From assembly GCA_028103285.1 (NCBI GenBank), contig JAOHNF010000002.1, positions 1 through 64,000 on the forward strand: DNA of 64,000 nt, given 5' to 3'. The position numbers and the translations under genes were made by a program. Each line of letters opens with the position of its first letter. Positions within the stretch are counted from its first letter, which is position 1. This document shows positions 49,405-55,135 of the stretch, one piece after another. Under the pieces are notes generated by a model. The model was not told the origin of the DNA. It searched no databases and worked only from the letters and a program-made list of their open reading frames with translations. The DNA is from Candidatus Pelagibacter sp. (GTDB lineage: Bacteria; Pseudomonadota; Alphaproteobacteria; Pelagibacterales; Pelagibacteraceae).

Positions 49405-50655
49405 TTAATGTGCTACTGCAGCTGCTCCATGTTCGTCTATTAATCTACCATTGGCAAATCTTTCTAAATTAAATGGTGCATTAATTCTGTGTGGTTTATC
49501 ATTAGCAACTGTGTGGGCAAAAACATTCGCACTACCGGGTGTCGCTTTGAATCCTCCCGTTCCCCATCCGCAATTAAAATATAATCCTCCAACTTCAGAT
49601 TTGCTTATAATTGGACTGGCATCAGGAGAAATATCTACTATACCTCCCCACTGTCTTAACATTTTCATTTTTCCAAATATTGGATAAAGCTCAACAATAG
49701 CTCGAACAGTTTCTTCAATAACATCGTAACCACCACGTTGTGTAAATGAATTATAACCATCTGTCCCAGCTCCGATAACTAATTCACCTTTATCTGATTG
49801 GCTAACATAAGCGTGAACAGCATTCGACATAACGACTGTATTTATTACTGGTTTAATAGGTTCAGAAACTAAAGCTTGTAAAGGTCTGCTTTGCAGAGGT
49901 AGTCTGACTCCTGCAGTTTTTGCTAATACGCTTGAATGACCTGAAGCTACAACAGCAACTTTTCCCGCTTTAATAAATCCTTTTGAAGTTTCAACTCCTT
50001 CAACTTTATTATTATTGGTTTTAATGTTATTAACTTCGCAGTTCTGAATAATATCAACACCCAGTTCATCTGCTCTCATTGCAAAACCCCAAGCAATAGC
50101 ATCATGCCTTGCTACTCCTCCTCTTGGTTGATAAGCGGCACCTAAAACTGGATATCTTAAGTTATCTGTATTCATTATAGGGACCAATTCTTTAATCTCT
50201 TTTGTATCTAGCCATTTGGTATCAAGTCCATTTAGTCTATTAGCGCTTATTCGTCTTTTCATTTCTTTTATGTCATGTTCGTTATGTGCTAAATTCATTA
50301 CACCTCTTTGGCTGAACATCATGTTGTAGTTAAGTTCTTTAGATAAATTTTCCCATAATTTAATTGAGTGGTCGTAAAGATAAGCGCTTTCGTTCCAAAG
50401 ATAATTTGACCTTATAATAGTTGTATTACGTCCAGTATTACCTCCTCCTAGCCATCCTTTTTCTATTACAGCAATATTTTTAATGCCGTGTTCTTTAGCT
50501 AAATAATAAGCAGTACCCAAACCATGACCACCACCACCAACTATTACGACATCATAAGTTTTTTTAGGCTCAGGGCTTTGCCACATTTTCTGCCAATTCT
50601 CATTGTTAGAGAAGGAATTTTTAATAAGGCTAAAGATTGAATAATTTTTTTTCAT
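49405..50655 (-). CDS. soxB: Sarcosine oxidase beta subunit
   Basis: 416 residues. The dinucleotide motif [22 protein letters not shown] and [24 protein letters not shown] match SoxB; His in [12 protein letters not shown] corresponds to the residue that carries covalent FMN in characterised enzymes. [20 protein letters not shown] closes the FAD site. It is the first gene of the soxBDAG-dmgdh unit and is divergent from the bmt leader. Confidence 0.95.
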
Positions 50656-50743
50656 AAAAATTAAACTAGCAAAAAAAGATGCAGTCAGCTACCAATCTTC
50701 ATGTTTAAATGACACAACTAAGGATGGTACCTTTAGATTATTG

Positions 50744-50771
50744 TTGACGAAGATATCAAAATAGATGTAAA
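50744..50771 (+). promoter_or_regulatory. Candidate bmt promoter
   Basis: TTGACG (50744-50749) and TGTAAA (50766-50771) with a 16-bp spacer place the transcript start within a few bases of the SAM-II aptamer at 50780. The -10 is weak, so the call is tentative. The metY promoter sits at the same place relative to its own aptamer. Confidence 0.5.
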
Positions 50772-50779
50772 GAGATATA

Positions 50780-50830
50780 AGCGTCGAGTTTTAACTAATT
50801 GCGGACGCTATATAAAACCAGCTAAAGTGA
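50780..50830 (+). promoter_or_regulatory. SAM-II riboswitch aptamer upstream of bmt
   Basis: P1 pairs AGCGTC (50780-50785) with GACGCT (50804-50809); the loop has the TTTTAACTAATTG core and the 3' part ends in AAAACCAGCTAAAG, as in the SAM-II class. I could not pair the P2 helix fully by eye in this copy. GCTAAAG (50821-50827) is exactly complementary to CTTTAGC (50850-50856) in the terminator, giving a ready SAM-off antiterminator. Confidence 0.78.
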
Positions 50831-50842
50831 TCAAATTTTATG

Positions 50843-50871
50843 ACCACCGCTTTAGCCGGTGGTTTTTTTTT
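50843..50871 (+). terminator. SAM-II-controlled terminator of bmt leader
   Basis: ACCACCG (50843-50849) pairs with CGGTGGT (50857-50863), followed by a run of nine T. In the presence of SAM the aptamer should hold GCTAAAG and let this form; without SAM, GCTAAAG can invade its loop. Confidence 0.9.
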
Positions 50872-50953
50872 GGAACAATCTAAAATTAAACCGGGTATTT
50901 GATCTGTATTGTGCACCTGACATTTTGTCGAAGCACTAAAAAAGGAGAGAAAG
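50872..50953 (+). promoter_or_regulatory. SAM-V riboswitch upstream of bmt
   Basis: GGAACAATCTAAAATTAAAC is shared base for base with the metY leader. Two helices follow: GTGC (50911-50914) with GCAC (50933-50936), and GAC (50919-50921) with GTC (50927-50929). Both differ from the metY copy in a base-pair-preserving way. The ribosome site AAAAAAGGAG sits directly after, so SAM binding should block translation of bmt. The tandem SAM-II/SAM-V design is known from SAR11. Confidence 0.9.
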
Positions 50954-52012
50954 ATGAGCAAAGATTTAATTAAACGACTTGATAAAGGCCCAGTAATTTG
51001 TGCTGAAGGTTTTTTATTCGAAATGGAAAAAAGAGGCTATTTAACATCTGGTGAATTTGTGCCAATGTTAGCTCTTGATAATCCAGAAGCCTTAGAAAGT
51101 TTACATAGAGATTTTCAACATGCTGGTTCAGATGTTGTTCAGGCATTTACCTATAACGGTCACAGAGAAAAAATGAGAGTGATAGGCAAAGAAGAATTAT
51201 TGGAACCTTTAAATCGTGCTGCACTAAAAATAGCAAAAAAAGTTGCTAACTTACAATCTAGTGGAGATAGACCAAATATGATGGCTGGAAACATATCAAA
51301 CTCTAATATTTGGAATGATAAAGATAAAGCAACTCATTTAGAAGTTGAAAAAATGTTTACAGAAATGGTTGGTTGGGCAGTTGATGAAGGAGCCGACATG
51401 TTAATTGGTGAAACTTTTTATTATGCTGAGGAAGCTTATAAGGCTTTAGAGGTAATGCAAAAGACAGGATTGCCAAGTGTAATAACTATTGCGCCAATGG
51501 CTGAAAATATTATGAGAGATGGCGTTGGTATCGTTGATACTTGTAAAGAATTAGAGCAACGTGGTGGTCAAGTAGTAGGCATGAATTGCTTCAGAGGACC
51601 TCCTACAATGTTACCTTACATAAAAGAAGTTAGAAAAGCTCTAAAATGCCATGTAGCAGCATTACCAATCACTTATAGAACAACAGAGAAAAACCCTACT
51701 TTTTTTAATCTTCCTGATAATAATGGATGTGCTTGCCCGACACCACACCAAACAACTTTTCCTACAGCTTTAGATCCTATGCAGGTTAATAGATATGAAA
51801 TGGGTAAGTTTATGAAAGAATGTTTTGATCTTGGTATAAATTACCTTGGAGTTTGTTGTGGCGCAAACCCAATGTTAATTAGAGAAACTGCACATGCTGT
51901 CGGTTTAATAGTGCCAGCAAGTAAATATAAAGAAAAAATGTCTAATCATTTCATGTACGGAACAAACAAAAGAATTCCAAAACACATGAAAGATTACGGC
52001 GATAAAGCTTAA
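50954..52012 (+). CDS. bmt: Betaine-homocysteine S-methyltransferase
   Basis: 352 residues. The zinc-thiolate ligands are Cys212 (VGMNCFRGPP) and Cys301/Cys302 (YLGVCCGANP), as in BHMT and MetH-type homocysteine methyltransferases. KGPVICAEGFLFEMEKRGYL and QAFTYNGH fit the N-terminal part of the barrel. It moves a methyl group from glycine betaine to homocysteine, giving methionine and dimethylglycine. Regulation by SAM-II and SAM-V matches its role in methionine supply. Confidence 0.93.
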   Translation: MSKDLIKRLDKGPVICAEGFLFEMEKRGYLTSGEFVPMLALDNPEALESLHRDFQHAGSDVVQAFTYNGHREKMRVIGKEELLEPLNRAALKIAKKVANLQSSGDRPNMMAGNISNSNIWNDKDKATHLEVEKMFTEMVGWAVDEGADMLIGETFYYAEEAYKALEVMQKTGLPSVITIAPMAENIMRDGVGIVDTCKELEQRGGQVVGMNCFRGPPTMLPYIKEVRKALKCHVAALPITYRTTEKNPTFFNLPDNNGCACPTPHQTTFPTALDPMQVNRYEMGKFMKECFDLGINYLGVCCGANPMLIRETAHAVGLIVPASKYKEKMSNHFMYGTNKRIPKHMKDYGDKA

Positions 52013-52034
52013 AAAAATTCATATAAAAAAATTC

Positions 52035-52064
52035 TTGACAATAATGTGGAAATATTGTTTTATA
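52035..52064 (+). promoter_or_regulatory. metY promoter
   Basis: A consensus -35 TTGACA (52035-52040) and a -10 of TTTTAT (52058-52063, 17-bp spacer) or TTTATA (18-bp) place the transcript start at about 52070, right where the SAM-II aptamer begins. The leader therefore holds almost no extra RNA before the sensor. Confidence 0.75.
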
Positions 52065-52069
52065 TCTAT

Positions 52070-52122
52070 AGCGCTGATTTAAAACAAATTGCTGAGCGCT
52101 TAACAAATCCAGCTAAAGCGAA
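52070..52122 (+). promoter_or_regulatory. SAM-II riboswitch aptamer upstream of metY
   Basis: P1 pairs AGCGCT (52070-52075) with AGCGCT (52095-52100); P2 pairs GCTG (52091-52094) with CAGC (52110-52113). GCGCTGATTTAA, AATTGC and AGCTAAAG match the characterised marine SAM-II aptamer. CTAAAGCG (52113-52120) is complementary to CGCTTTAG (52140-52147) in the terminator. Confidence 0.92.
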
Positions 52123-52134
52123 AAAGTCTCTCAG

Positions 52135-52163
52135 ACCACCGCTTTAGTCGGTGGTTTTTTTTT
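52135..52163 (+). terminator. SAM-II-controlled terminator of metY leader
   Basis: ACCACCG (52135-52141) pairs with CGGTGGT (52149-52155), then a run of nine T. It matches the bmt copy apart from one loop base, and its loop can pair with the 3' end of SAM-II. Confidence 0.92.
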
Positions 52164-52241
52164 GGAACAATCTAAAATTAAACCGGGTATTTGAACCATA
52201 TTGTACACCTGGCGTTTTGCCGAAGTACTAAAAAGGAGAAG
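52164..52241 (+). promoter_or_regulatory. SAM-V riboswitch upstream of the metY leader ORFs
   Basis: Nearly identical to the bmt SAM-V. GTAC (52203-52206) pairs with GTAC (52225-52228), and GGC (52211-52213) with GCC (52219-52221). CCGGGT (52182-52187) can pair with ACCTGG (52207-52212) for the pseudoknot. The adjoining AAAAAGGAG is the ribosome site not of metY but of a 24-codon ORF at 52242, so control of metY would be indirect. Confidence 0.92.
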
Positions 52242-52295
52242 ATGAATTTAAAAATTATAACTCCCTCGTTTGTTAATTTTAATTCATTCTTCTCC
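52235..52295 (+). promoter_or_regulatory. Long hairpin over start of leader ORF 1
   Basis: GGAGAAG (52235-52241) pairs exactly with CTTCTCC (52289-52295), and TGAATT with AATTCA, continuing to about 20 pairs with one or two bulges. It covers the SAM-V ribosome site and the ATG of leader ORF 1 but leaves GAGGAG (52303-52308) of leader ORF 2 free. It may be a third control element. Confidence 0.6.
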
Positions 52296-52316
52296 AGAAA
52301 AAGAGGAGAAAAATGA
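52242..52316 (+). CDS. Leader ORF 1 in metY 5' UTR (24 aa)
   Basis: ATG at 52242 follows the SAM-V ribosome site AAGGAG by 3 bases past GA. It encodes 24 residues, from MNLKIITPSF to RKRGEK, and stops at TGA 52314-52316. The stop overlaps the next ATG (ATGA). Its last codons hold GAGGAG, the ribosome site for the second leader ORF. The spacing between ribosome site and ATG is short. Whether the peptide itself matters is unknown; the overlap points to translational coupling. Confidence 0.62.
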   Translation: MNLKIITPSFVNFNSFFSRKRGEK

Positions 52317-52357
52317 ACGAAACAATAAGAAAAGAAACAACAAGGAGTAATAAATAA
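52313..52357 (+). CDS. Leader ORF 2 in metY 5' UTR (14 aa)
   Basis: ATG 52313 overlaps the stop of leader ORF 1. It encodes MNETIRKETTRSNK and ends with TAA 52355-52357, sharing one base with the metY ATG (TAATG). Its ribosome site GAGGAG lies within leader ORF 1, and it contains the metY ribosome site AAGGAG (52342-52347 region). The peptide is basic and polar with five Thr/Ser and no Met or Cys after the start. Confidence 0.62.
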   Translation: MNETIRKETTRSNK

Positions 52358-53649
52358 TGGCTGATTATAAACACCCAGAAACTATTGCATTACATGGAGG
52401 AACATACAGAAGTGATCCTGCAACAACGGCAGTAGCAGTACCAATTTATCAAACAACTTCTTATCAATTTAAAGATGCAAAAACTGCTGCAAATTTATTT
52501 GGTTTGAAAGAATTTGGTAACATTTACACAAGAATAATGAACCCAACATGTAACGTGCTTGAAGAAAGAGTGGCGGCGCTTGAAGGTGGAGTTGCAGCGT
52601 GTGCAGTTGGTTCAGGTCAAGCAGCAACTGCAATGTGCATACAAAACTTAGCACAAGCAGGTGATAATATTGTTGCATCTACAGATCTATATGGTGGAAC
52701 AGTAAACTTATTCAAAAATACTTTAAGACAACAAGGTATTGAAGTTAGATTTGCTGATCCAGCTGATCCAACAAACTTTGAAAAGTTAACAGATGAAAAA
52801 ACACGAGCATATTATGGGGAGACATTACCAAATCCATATTTACGTGTTTTTCCCATTAAAGAAGTTTCAGATATTGGTAGAAAGCATGGAATTCCATTAA
52901 TTATGGATAACACTGCGGCGCCAGTAATTTGTAAGCCTTTAGCTCATGGAGCTGCAATAGTATTGCACTCATTGACTAAATTTATTGGTGGTCACGGTAC
53001 TTCAATTGGTGGGATAGTTGTAGATGGTGGAAATTTTGATTGGATTAAAAATCGAAAAAGACAACCACTATTAAATGAACCTGATCAAAGTTATGGTGGA
53101 GCAATTTGGACTGATGCAGTTCCTGTTTTAACAGGTGCTAATATTCCATTTGTAATAAGACTTAGGGTAGTCTTGCTTAGAGATACAGGGGCTCCTTTAG
53201 CGCCGTTTAATGCTTGGCAAATCATACAAGGTTTAGAAACTGTTGGTCTCAGAATGAAACAACACTGTGCAAATGCAGAAAAAATTGTGACATTTTTAGA
53301 GACACAGAAAAAAGTTAAAAATGTTATCTATCCTACTAATCACCAGGGTGAGATTAAGGAAAGAGCTAAAAAATATTTGCAGGGCGGAAATGGAGCGTTA
53401 GTTGGGGCAGATTTAGGAACTGTAGAAGCAGGAGCTAAATTTATTGATAACTTAAAGATGCTTTATCATGTTGCTAATATCGGCGATGCTAGAAGTTTAG
53501 CAATTCACCCCGCAACAACCACACACAGCCAACTAAGTGAAAAAGAATTATTAGCTGCAGGTGTAACACCAGGTTATGTAAGACTTTCAATTGGTATCGA
53601 ACACCCAGATGATATCATTGCAGATATTAACCAAGCTTTAGCCGCTTAA
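52357..53649 (+). CDS. metY: O-acetylhomoserine sulfhydrylase
   Basis: 430 residues, as usual for MetY. The PLP lysine is Lys208 in LHSLTKFIGGHGTSIGG; YGGTVNLF, MDNTAAPVICKPL and SRSLAIHPATTTHSQL-like DARSLAIHPATTTHSQL near the C-terminus are diagnostic. It joins O-acetylhomoserine and sulfide to homocysteine, which Bmt methylates. Translation is probably coupled to two small leader ORFs and controlled by two SAM riboswitches. Confidence 0.96.
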   Translation: MADYKHPETIALHGGTYRSDPATTAVAVPIYQTTSYQFKDAKTAANLFGLKEFGNIYTRIMNPTCNVLEERVAALEGGVAACAVGSGQAATAMCIQNLAQAGDNIVASTDLYGGTVNLFKNTLRQQGIEVRFADPADPTNFEKLTDEKTRAYYGETLPNPYLRVFPIKEVSDIGRKHGIPLIMDNTAAPVICKPLAHGAAIVLHSLTKFIGGHGTSIGGIVVDGGNFDWIKNRKRQPLLNEPDQSYGGAIWTDAVPVLTGANIPFVIRLRVVLLRDTGAPLAPFNAWQIIQGLETVGLRMKQHCANAEKIVTFLETQKKVKNVIYPTNHQGEIKERAKKYLQGGNGALVGADLGTVEAGAKFIDNLKMLYHVANIGDARSLAIHPATTTHSQLSEKELLAAGVTPGYVRLSIGIEHPDDIIADINQALAA

Positions 53650-53691: not shown

Positions 53692-54051
53692 ATGATTGAA
53701 CAAATTAAATCTTCAGAAATAAAAAAATTTATAGAAAAAAATCCTAAAACTATTCTTTTAGATGTAAGGACAGAAGATGAATGGAGTACTGTTGGCAAAC
53801 CCAATTCTGATAGCCTAGGCATAAAAACTTATTTTATTACAATTGGTCGAGACCCAAGTTTTATTGAAAGTGTTAAAAAAGAAATTAATAAAGAAAATCA
53901 AGTTTTAGTAATGTGTGCTGCTGGTGGAAGATCTATCATTGCAGCAAACCTGCTTCAAAATGAAGGATACAAAGCACATAATGTTTCAGATGGATTCAGT
54001 GGCAACGGTCAAGATCTTGGTTGGAAAAACTCTGGATTACCCACTAAATAG
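53692..54051 (+). CDS. Single-domain rhodanese-like sulfurtransferase
   Basis: 119 residues, one rhodanese domain: TILLDVRTEDEWSTVGKPNSD near the start and the active loop CAAGGRS (Cys near residue 75) in VLVMCAAGGRSIIAANLL. The VSDGFSGNGQDLGWKNSGLP end is typical. It is cytoplasmic and could serve sulfur trafficking beside MetY. It converges on and overlaps the lipoprotein gene end by 15 bases. Confidence 0.9.
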   Translation: MIEQIKSSEIKKFIEKNPKTILLDVRTEDEWSTVGKPNSDSLGIKTYFITIGRDPSFIESVKKEINKENQVLVMCAAGGRSIIAANLLQNEGYKAHNVSDGFSGNGQDLGWKNSGLPTK

Positions 54052-54570
54052 ATACTGCTTTAAGAATTTATCTTTTAGATTTTTTATTTCAGTTTGCAAA
54101 GTAATAGCTATTTCTTTAGGTGATTTTGTAAATTGATTAAAGCTTTCAGCAGAACTTATATCTTTTAAAATAACGTTACTCTTAGGTTTTGTTGCTACTT
54201 TTGTAGTAATTGGCTTCGTAGTACTGGGTTTTTTTTTTACAGTCGATATTACTTTTTGTTTTATAGCTCTGTTTGTTAAAGATATTTTTTTTTTAGCAAT
54301 CGTGCAGAATTCTGATCTTGTTTTTTCAATAAATGATATGCAAGTCTCTTTTTCTTTTCCAGGATTATTTTTTTCAGCATAAGCAATGACATGGCCCAAA
54401 GGAGTTTTTCCTGTTTGTTTCTTTATTCCATAACTTACTGTTGACTGTAATGAAGATTGAAGCAATTTACCACTTGTTGCTCCTCCAGCTGTTGAGCCAA
54501 GCAAGGCCACAGATTCAACGCACCCGTTAAGTAAAAATAATAGTGGTAGAAAAAATAATATTTTTTTCAT
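54037..54570 (-). CDS. Putative lipoprotein, paralogue A
   Basis: 177 residues with a lipobox (LLFLLNGC, Cys17), then VESVALLGSTAGGATSGKLLQSS and the conserved KKQTGKTPLGHVIAYAEKNN. A Cys pair (CISFIEKTRSEFC) follows, then a Lys/Thr/Pro-rich linker (SMTKPIT-like repeats) and a C-terminal helix. I do not recognise a family. It is about 42 residues longer than its tandem paralogue at 54728. Confidence 0.72.
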   Translation of the reverse strand: MKKILFFLPLLFLLNGCVESVALLGSTAGGATSGKLLQSSLQSTVSYGIKKQTGKTPLGHVIAYAEKNNPGKEKETCISFIEKTRSEFCTIAKKKISLTNRAIKQKVISTVKKKPSTTKPITTKVATKPKSNVILKDISSAESFNQFTKSPKEIAITLQTEIKNLKDKFLKQYLFSG

Positions 54571-54727: not shown

Positions 54728-55135
54728 TTAATCTAGATATTTAATTTTAGATTTTTTATCGATACTGGATTGTAATGACGAGGAAAAAGCTTTTAAAGAT
54801 TTGTCCTGTTTTTTTATATTTATAATTTTAGCTTTTGTTAGACTAAGTTGTTTTTTTACAATTACACAAACATCTGAATTAGTCTTTTTAACAAATGATA
54901 GACAAGGCTCTTTTTTTTTTTTTCCTAAATTATTTTTTTCAGCATAAGTCATGGCGTGACCTAAAGGTGTTTTTCCTGTTTGTTTCTTTATTCCAAAACT
55001 TGCTACCGAATGTATTGAAGACTGTAACATTTTTCCACTTGATGCACCTCCCGCTGTAGTACCAAGTAAAGCAATAGACTCAGCACATCCGTTTAATAAG
55101 AACGTTATAAATAATAAAGAAAATATTTTCTTCAT
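54728..55135 (-). CDS. Putative lipoprotein, paralogue B
   Basis: 135 residues, clearly duplicated from or with the gene at 54037: lipobox LLNGC, AESIALLGTTAGGASSGKMLQSS, KKQTGKTPLGHAMTYAEKNN and the Cys pair CLSFVKKTNSDVC. The C-terminal half differs and is shorter. Likely attached to the outer or inner membrane facing the periplasm. The 157 bp between the paralogues hold no clear gene. Confidence 0.72.
   Translation of the reverse strand: MKKIFSLLFITFLLNGCAESIALLGTTAGGASSGKMLQSSIHSVASFGIKKQTGKTPLGHAMTYAEKNNLGKKKKEPCLSFVKKTNSDVCVIVKKQLSLTKAKIINIKKQDKSLKAFSSSLQSSIDKKSKIKYLD

Follow-up and report, generated by a model that had tools for sequence, protein, structure and literature searches.

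A Probable Strand-Exchange Translational Switch Attached to the SAM-V Aptamer of metY in Candidatus Pelagibacter

Layout of the metY Locus

SAR11 bacteria rank among the most numerous cells of the ocean. The stretch of DNA analysed here, referred to as the window, comprises 64,000 nucleotides (nt) of Candidatus Pelagibacter sp. (contig JAOHNF010000002.1, positions 1 to 64,000), in which metY is preceded by an aptamer of SAM-V, a riboswitch class that binds S-adenosylmethionine (SAM), and by two short open reading frames (ORFs). The leader is likely to combine SAM-V with a translational switch that works by strand exchange, and the ribosome-site-like sequence beside SAM-V in many SAR11 is probably a decoy strand, not a working ribosome site. 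The genes, aptamers and ORFs concerned are:

50884-50956, plus strand: SAM-V directly before bhmT, direct architecture, nt 14-15 CU (RF01826, sequence read)
50954-52012, plus strand: bhmT (PF02574 match)
52176-52241, plus strand: SAM-V aptamer before metY, nt 14-15 in the published numbering CC (RF01826, 68.7 bits)
52242-52316, plus strand: ORF1, 24 codons, MNLKIITPSFVNFNSFFSRKRGEK, probably no functional gene (end broken in 18/58 leaders)
52313-52357, plus strand: ORF2, a leader ORF of 14 codons, MNETIRKETTRSNK, overlapping the metY start (frame and overlap in 58/58)
52344-52349, plus strand: GGAGTA, the ribosome site of metY itself, within ORF2 (sequence)
52357-53649, plus strand: metY, O-acetylhomoserine sulfhydrylase (TIGR01326, 560.9 bits)

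The score of the metY-side SAM-V exceeds the gathering cut-off of the Rfam covariance model RF01826 (41 bits), as does the 65.8 bits of the copy on the bhmT side (50884-50950); beyond SAM-V, no family came above its cut-off in an Rfam scan of the window. Both bhmT and metY have a terminator-like hairpin and an above-cut-off SAM-V upstream. At bhmT the aptamer leads straight into AAGGAG and then into the ATG of the gene. At metY the AAGGAG (52233-52238) is followed by ORF1, whose ATG lies 115 bases 5' of that of metY. ORF1 and ORF2 meet in ATGA, and ORF2 and metY meet in TAATG, with the metY ATG at 52357. A first-pass annotation had described this layout, with SAM-V directly before bhmT and extra parts in the metY leader, and every one of its features was located in the sequence. 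The ATG of ORF2 stands 72 positions past the aptamer end and that of metY 116 positions past it. The typical SAM-V trait of a regulated gene's ribosome site immediately 3' of the aptamer, which is no part of the aptamer definition, is absent at metY.

Three Competing RNA Strands after SAM-V

The leader holds inverted repeats that the first-pass annotation had not mentioned: 52235-52260 with 52270-52295, and 52278-52295 with 52305-52322. The start region of ORF1 is a near copy of that of ORF2, and both compete for one anti-Shine-Dalgarno (anti-SD) strand. The Shine-Dalgarno (SD) sequences and start codons of the two ORFs are called SD1/ATG1 and SD2/ATG2. The strands are:

52235-52248, plus strand: SD1/ATG1 arm, GGAGAAGATGAATT, proposed antisequestor, i.e., a decoy ribosome site (pairing; resembles 52305-52317)
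52261-52267, plus strand: pyrimidine block CTCCCTC in the loop of helix P_A (by eye)
52281-52295, plus strand: anti-SD strand, AATTCATTCTTCTCC, complementary to SD1/ATG1 and to SD2/ATG2 (pairing)
52305-52319, plus strand: SD2 and ATG2, GGAGAAAAATGAACG, proposed real ribosome site, that of ORF2 (predicted accessibility)

The helix of the SD1 arm with the anti-SD is termed P_A, and that of the anti-SD with SD2/ATG2 is termed P_B. In the window, P_A has a folding energy of -19.6 kcal/mol (z = -5.69), which was equalled by none of 200 dinucleotide shuffles. When the fold is extended to include SD2 and the start of ORF2 (96 nt), z is only -2.53 and two of 200 such shuffles equal it. Mononucleotide shuffles of 52255-52296 paired equally well with the SD1 arm in one of 5000 cases.

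For comparison with relatives, a MetY search of genome contigs was used, from which the best 80 of 393 loci were taken, giving 81 leaders with that of the window. SAM-V, two start-like copies and ORF2 are found in 58 of these; seven have SAM-V directly before metY, and 16 lack SAM-V just before metY. Both helices can form in all 58 metY switch leaders, with mean energies of -17.8 kcal/mol for P_A and -18.6 kcal/mol for P_B, and loss of the first GG of SD1 weakens P_A by about 7.6 kcal. Mutually exclusive helices with a common strand, one of them covering a ribosome site, are the hallmark of a strand-exchange translational riboswitch, and this arrangement is found here.

Whether the pairing is itself conserved was judged by covariation, in which the SD1 arm of each representative was paired with every anti-SD arm over 20,000 permutations. 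The 18 representatives were chosen by the author from 89 unique switch leaders and are related by descent; a reduced set of the nine most different lessens the effect of kinship without doing away with it. For P_A, the own partner gave -19.1 kcal/mol and foreign partners -12.7 kcal/mol, with no permutation (0/20,000) reaching the same value. The outcome was the same without the GGAG:CUCC core (own -10.3, foreign -4.9; 0/20,000), and the P_A result was unchanged in the nine most different representatives.

Two further features of the P_A loop were noticed. A C-rich block (CTCCCTC, CCCCTC, CCCTC, etc.) was seen by eye in the 16 representatives with a long loop, examples being the window, L011, L068, L139, L192, L207 and L212, and in neither of the two with a short loop; possibly it serves as a second anti-SD or as a loop contact. 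In the window, ACTCC (52260-52264) can also pair with GGAGT (52344-52348) of the ribosome site of metY itself, a pairing which, as modelled, would shut metY too in the OFF state.

Nucleotides 14-15 of the Aptamer as a Marker

According to the available part of Huang and Lilley (PMC6061858), a short helix, P2a, joins nt 14-15 of the aptamer to the start of the SD. When their numbering is placed on the present sequences (the placement is our own), nt 14-15 stand opposite exactly the GG that closes P_A. A set of 136 unique leaders has CC at nt 14-15 in 87/87 switch leaders and CU in 49/49 direct ones, with one of each in the window; the set covers leaders that match the core regular expression and have at least 110 bases downstream. 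The run of A's is five long in all 87 switch leaders. It is six long in 36 direct leaders (U15-A53) and five in the other 13 (U15-G53). The complementarity needed for P2a is present throughout: CC faces GG in the 87 switch leaders, and CU faces AG (36) or GG (13, with one G-U) in the direct ones.

Genomes of the order, 397 in number, were searched in three ways. An RNA model built from 41 distinct metY leaders (E of 0.01 or better, matches read in part) matched in 31/397 genomes of the order and in 89/169 of the genus of genome G006. A pattern of the architecture was found in 38/397 genomes, with 5/397 for the reversed-pattern control. As a test of the signature, a search for SAM-V cores with CC, in which the sequence after the A run was left free, gave 41/397 genomes (reversed-pattern control 1/397), which are the 40 already found by model or pattern plus G146. 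Thirty of the 41 CC loci were read, and 29 of them fit the full switch pattern. The exception, in G146 (L244), has a CC SAM-V and an intact P_A, with no SD2 or gene start in the 140 bases behind; it is either an orphaned switch or one that has lost its gene. As the architecture pattern required an A run of five, a version with the run of six that is usual in direct leaders was run as a check and found nothing in 233 genomes. Judging from the sequences covered by the RNA model, the two architecture patterns and the table of nt 14-15, all within one bacterial order, there would seem to be no switch leader with CU.

A rival account is that P_A does no more than protect or punctuate the mRNA as a hairpin, or act as a thermometer, and that SAM-V acts on something else. 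The helices are indeed very stable and balanced. However, this account leaves unexplained both the complementarity of the anti-SD to SD2 and the strict link with nt 15 of the aptamer, which faces the GG of SD1, and we regard it as very improbable.

Proposed Mechanism

The reading that we favour, and consider likely, is that SAM-V is joined to a translational strand-exchange switch in which SD1 is a decoy. We infer that the switch depends on SAM, that its helices fold in a set order during transcription, that ribosomes use SD2, and that metY is reached by reinitiation. Without SAM, SD1 (52235-52248) would pair with the anti-SD (52281-52295) as P_A, which would leave SD2/ATG2 (52305-52319) open; ribosomes would then translate ORF2 as the first cistron and enter metY via the stop/start overlap. 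With SAM, P2a of the aptamer would capture two G's of SD1 (C14-G54 and C15-G53), and the base of P_A would be lost. The freed CC of the anti-SD would act as a toehold, the anti-SD would swap to SD2 to form P_B, and both ORF2 and metY would be turned off. The first GG of SD1 would thus be common to P2a and P_A, and SD1 would be an antisequestor in the form of a copied ribosome site. ATG1 is explained in the same way, since the anti-SD also covers ATG2.

A broader reading, which we rate at about even chances, is that SAM-V exists in two kinds that differ by one base. With U15 the aptamer would hide the gene's own site. With C15 it would grip a decoy, and P2a would be a ligand-gated toehold in a three-strand exchange placed before any first ORF. 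At metY, termination, the switch and a reinitiating leader ORF would be stacked as three gates in a minimal genome.

If the proposal is true, the purines that have been taken as the SD of SAM-V are no ribosome site in part of SAR11, and a single base of the aptamer reveals which mechanism is used. It would also account for the puzzling pair of tiny ORFs, and it cautions against annotating starts like that of ORF1. Finally, the leader would be a compact natural strand-exchange switch in which a C15/U15 swap allows a direct test.

The effect of SAM was imitated by holding the first GG of SD1 unpaired. In these folds, which lack the pseudoknot and the energy of SAM binding, the predicted probability that SD2 of the window is unpaired falls from 0.99 when free to 0.03 with GG held, and the mean of the 18 representatives falls from 0.39 to 0.008. 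With GG held, SD2 is sequestered in 18/18 representatives (unpaired at most 0.07 at 37 °C).

Besides the simplification in these folds, several results weigh against the proposal. The accessibility of SD2 is at most 0.1 even without the hold in 6/18 representatives at 37 °C and in 7/18 at 16 °C, and for the window a free fold that takes in the metY start lowers it to 0.09; in that fold, ACTCC (52260-52264) pairs with GGAGT of the metY site. Since the free state is not dependably open at equilibrium, the model requires that P_A be the first helix to form while the RNA is being transcribed. The upper stem of P_A persists in the two predicted states of several lineages, which may limit the exchange to about 4-9 pairs. 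The own partner of P_A was the single best in only 8/18 representatives (8/9 in the reduced set), because related representatives share partners. The evidence for P_B is weaker than that for P_A: the whole helix was equalled in 26/20,000 permutations (130/20,000 in the set of nine), and outside the GGAG:CUCC core no significant covariation was found (3004/20,000; 3185 in the set of nine). P_B was therefore rejected as the main conserved helix, as the core alone holds up. There is also a start codon at SD1, an ATG with one GTG, in 58/58 metY leaders, and ORF1 still ends in ATGA in 40/58.

Decay of ORF1

These last two counts are what might be expected if SAM-V blocked a true ribosome site at 52233-52238, and if translation of ORF1 opened SD2 and passed ribosomes on to ORF2 and metY. 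Such a relay through ORF1 is what the first-pass annotation had proposed, and P_B would indeed need ribosomes to open it. However, ORF1 is not kept intact. Apart from the 40 metY leaders with ATGA, ORF1 stops after 2-4 codons in five, runs in frame into ORF2 in seven, and passes ATG2 in another frame in six, so that its end is broken in 18/58. On the metY tree the broken state requires 16 changes, at least eight of which are forced by well-supported branches, and it is clustered no more than shuffled labels are. In 7/18 representatives, which are of the bhmT type, the 16 bases that follow the GGAG of SD1 contain no ATG, GTG or TTG. ORF1 as a conserved leader peptide was rejected on these two grounds.

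The helix evidence points the same way. P_A, the helix that covaries best, hides SD1 and ATG1, contrary to the needs of a working start; a conserved SD1:anti-SD helix would hide the start of ORF1 instead of serving it. The covariation of P_A without an equal signal in P_B further indicates selection on P_A in its own right, which would not suit a relay through ORF1. The comparison of leader ORFs across SAR11 metY leaders, which the first-pass annotation itself had named as a test capable of refuting the relay, thus goes against ORF1, and the broken ends and the start-hiding helix speak against the claim that SAM-V controls ORF1 and that ORF1 relays the signal. ORF1 is probably not a functional gene, and we find the relay quite unlikely.

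A compromise between the two readings, meant for some bhmT leaders and the metY clade, would have the exchange aided by a ribosome that sits on SD1/ORF1 and keeps the anti-SD occupied, so that ORF1 would have to be started and need not be finished. The start codon at SD1 in all 58 metY leaders suits this idea, and it tolerates early stops in ORF1. Yet pairing alone accounts for ATG1, and the GTG of the exceptional leader (L053) retains the pairing as G-U. The same 7/18 representatives have no start codon at SD1, and a ribosome parked on ATG1 would free the anti-SD to close SD2. We therefore hold this version to be unlikely and keep to SD1 as a decoy.

ORF2 and Its Likely Coupling to metY

All switch leaders (58/58) preserve the frame of ORF2 and the overlap with metY, which is eight bases long in 57 of them and one base in the window. 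This conservation makes coupling likely. With its own ribosome site and a stop/start overlap that is conserved, this short ORF also has the layout of an upstream ORF (uORF) of the termination-reinitiation type known from ppe2. As a peptide, ORF2 appears less constrained: in 53 leaders, codon positions 1, 2 and 3 have 38, 26 and 40 non-consensus cells, with no clear bias towards silent changes, and no Met or Cys occurs beyond the start in the 12 commonest forms. ORF2 showed no sign of being an amino-acid attenuator of the trp/his type, the peptide of which would be rich in the regulated amino acid and conserved. We take ORF2 to be a means of coupling, not a functional peptide.

The first-pass interpretation is thus borne out in part. 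Of the proposed chain of coupled ORFs, the placement of SAM-V away from the site of metY itself and the ORF2/metY overlap stand, and the link through ORF1 falls away. The suggested comparison of ORF lengths, overlaps and codon bias gave a conserved ORF2 overlap, a decayed ORF1 and no clear silent-change bias in ORF2.

The second codon of ORF2 is AAC or AGC, both of which pair with the anti-SD, in 57/58 switch leaders and in 0/16 metY leaders without SAM-V in front; for L040, ORF2 is read from the MNE start and not from an internal ATG. An ORF2-like ORF is found in 15 of those 16 (the ORF of L077 is unrelated) and in 0/7 leaders with SAM-V directly before metY, so ORF2 travels with metY rather than with SAM-V. 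In relatives with ORF2, metY mostly begins M-x-D, the codons of which supply the TGA of ORF2, and several direct leaders begin M-A-N (uncounted). From the sequence, the coupling may constrain the third residue of metY.

Distribution among Relatives

SAM-V was detected in 190/397 genomes of the order (matches read in part). At 14 of the 16 metY loci without an adjoining SAM-V, the same SAM-V switch stands before the upstream gene, which is bhmT or metE-like. Of the other two, the contig of L014 starts 351 bases before metY, and L077 has no such site by the pattern used. Weak matches of the RNA model and the pattern search likewise gave diverged copies before bhmT-like and metE-like genes. These loci lack ORF2, and SD2 is there the ribosome site of the gene itself. 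The switch is found before ORF2-metY, bhmT or a metE-like gene; it goes with whichever ORF is first.

At the four diverged loci L171, L188, L192 and L207, SAM-V is above the Rfam cut-off in every case. Six bhmT-type proteins, including that of the window, match PF02574. Two metE-like proteins match no Pfam family; for one metE-like protein, the matches to three NCBIfam models of methionine synthase all fall far below the cut-offs. Strain HTCC1062, identified as G017 by published coordinates, appears to carry the direct metY form, because its SAM-V match stops four bases short of the end of the published intergenic region. Since published work deals with HTCC1062, its direct form may explain why the literature, in the portions available, describes no other form.

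Relation to Known Systems

The crystal structure of SAM-V and its mechanism of direct ribosome-site blocking have been published, as has SAM binding by the SAM-V copies of Ca. Pelagibacter ubique. With direct SAM-V as presented in the available parts of PMC6061858 and PMC2704228, the metY leader has in common an aptamer above the cut-off, a P2a in which nt 14-15 pair with purines after the A run, and a placement at methionine genes. It differs in that the purines pair with an anti-SD, in the 70 bases that separate them from the proposed real site, and in having C and not U at nt 15.

The closest parallel for the uORF layout is the ppe2 B12 riboswitch of Mycobacterium tuberculosis (Kipkorir 2024, PMC11260477). 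According to that paper, translation of the uORF uPPE2 is essential for PPE2 expression, and PPE2 is produced mainly by termination-reinitiation. Both systems combine a start region, an anti-strand and a purine-rich anti-anti-strand, with a short uORF as the first target and an AUGA overlap. The aptamer and ligand there are unrelated, however, and that mechanism was tested with reporters, whereas the present one is predicted; the anti-anti-strand here also copies the start codon.

The same mutually exclusive sequester and antisequester helices are described for strand-exchange translational riboswitches at large in a review (PMC10907184), but here the strand common with the aptamer would be just the two G's of a two-pair helix. 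No description of an antisequestor or decoy site with SAM-V was found in a search of the literature, in which sources were available in part; the founding SAM-V paper (PMC2764483) may hold an earlier mention. As far as these searches show, the leader belongs to a known kind, the strand-exchange switch, and its uORF layout has a precedent in ppe2; what is new is the second SAM-V platform, the decoy site and the marker base.

Elements Upstream of the metY SAM-V

Three candidate elements lie between bhmT and the metY-side aptamer:

52035-52040, plus strand: TTGACA in the bhmT-metY interval, which may be the -35 box of a promoter for metY (by eye)
52061-52137, plus strand: SAM-II-like (SAM_alpha) element (Rfam RF00521, weak)
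52133-52163, plus strand: hairpin and T run resembling an intrinsic terminator, placed after the SAM-II-like element and before SAM-V (terminator scan)

The TTGACA at 52035-52040 was not among the calls of a simple promoter scan. The SAM-II-like element at metY scores 13.5 bits with RF00521 (E = 0.41; cut-off 36), and other matches at chance level score higher; a copy before bhmT reaches 18.2 bits, also below the cut-off. The tentative identification at metY is drawn mainly from published tandem SAM-II/SAM-V arrangements. These, in the passages available, share with metY a terminator after the SAM-II-like element, followed by SAM-V; unlike metY, they mention no exchange platform after SAM-V and no leader ORF.

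A terminator scan of 50600-52420 gave four sites, two at the metY-side hairpin and two at the bhmT-side hairpin, with a shuffle mean of 0.8. The terminator is nearly identical before metY and before bhmT, the matching stretch on the bhmT side lying at about 50842-50864. Before metY, CGCTTTAG in the terminator stem-loop has its complement in CTAAAGCG (52113-52120) at the end of the SAM-II-like element (window 52113-52154), and by its sequence this pairing is likely an antiterminator.

Outside the leader, two related lipoprotein-like genes (MKKILFFLPLLFLLNGCVESVALLGSTAGG and MKKIFSLLFITFLLNGCAESIALLGTTAGG) lie next to each other on the minus strand of the window, at 54037-54570 and 54728-55135, probably as the result of a tandem duplication.
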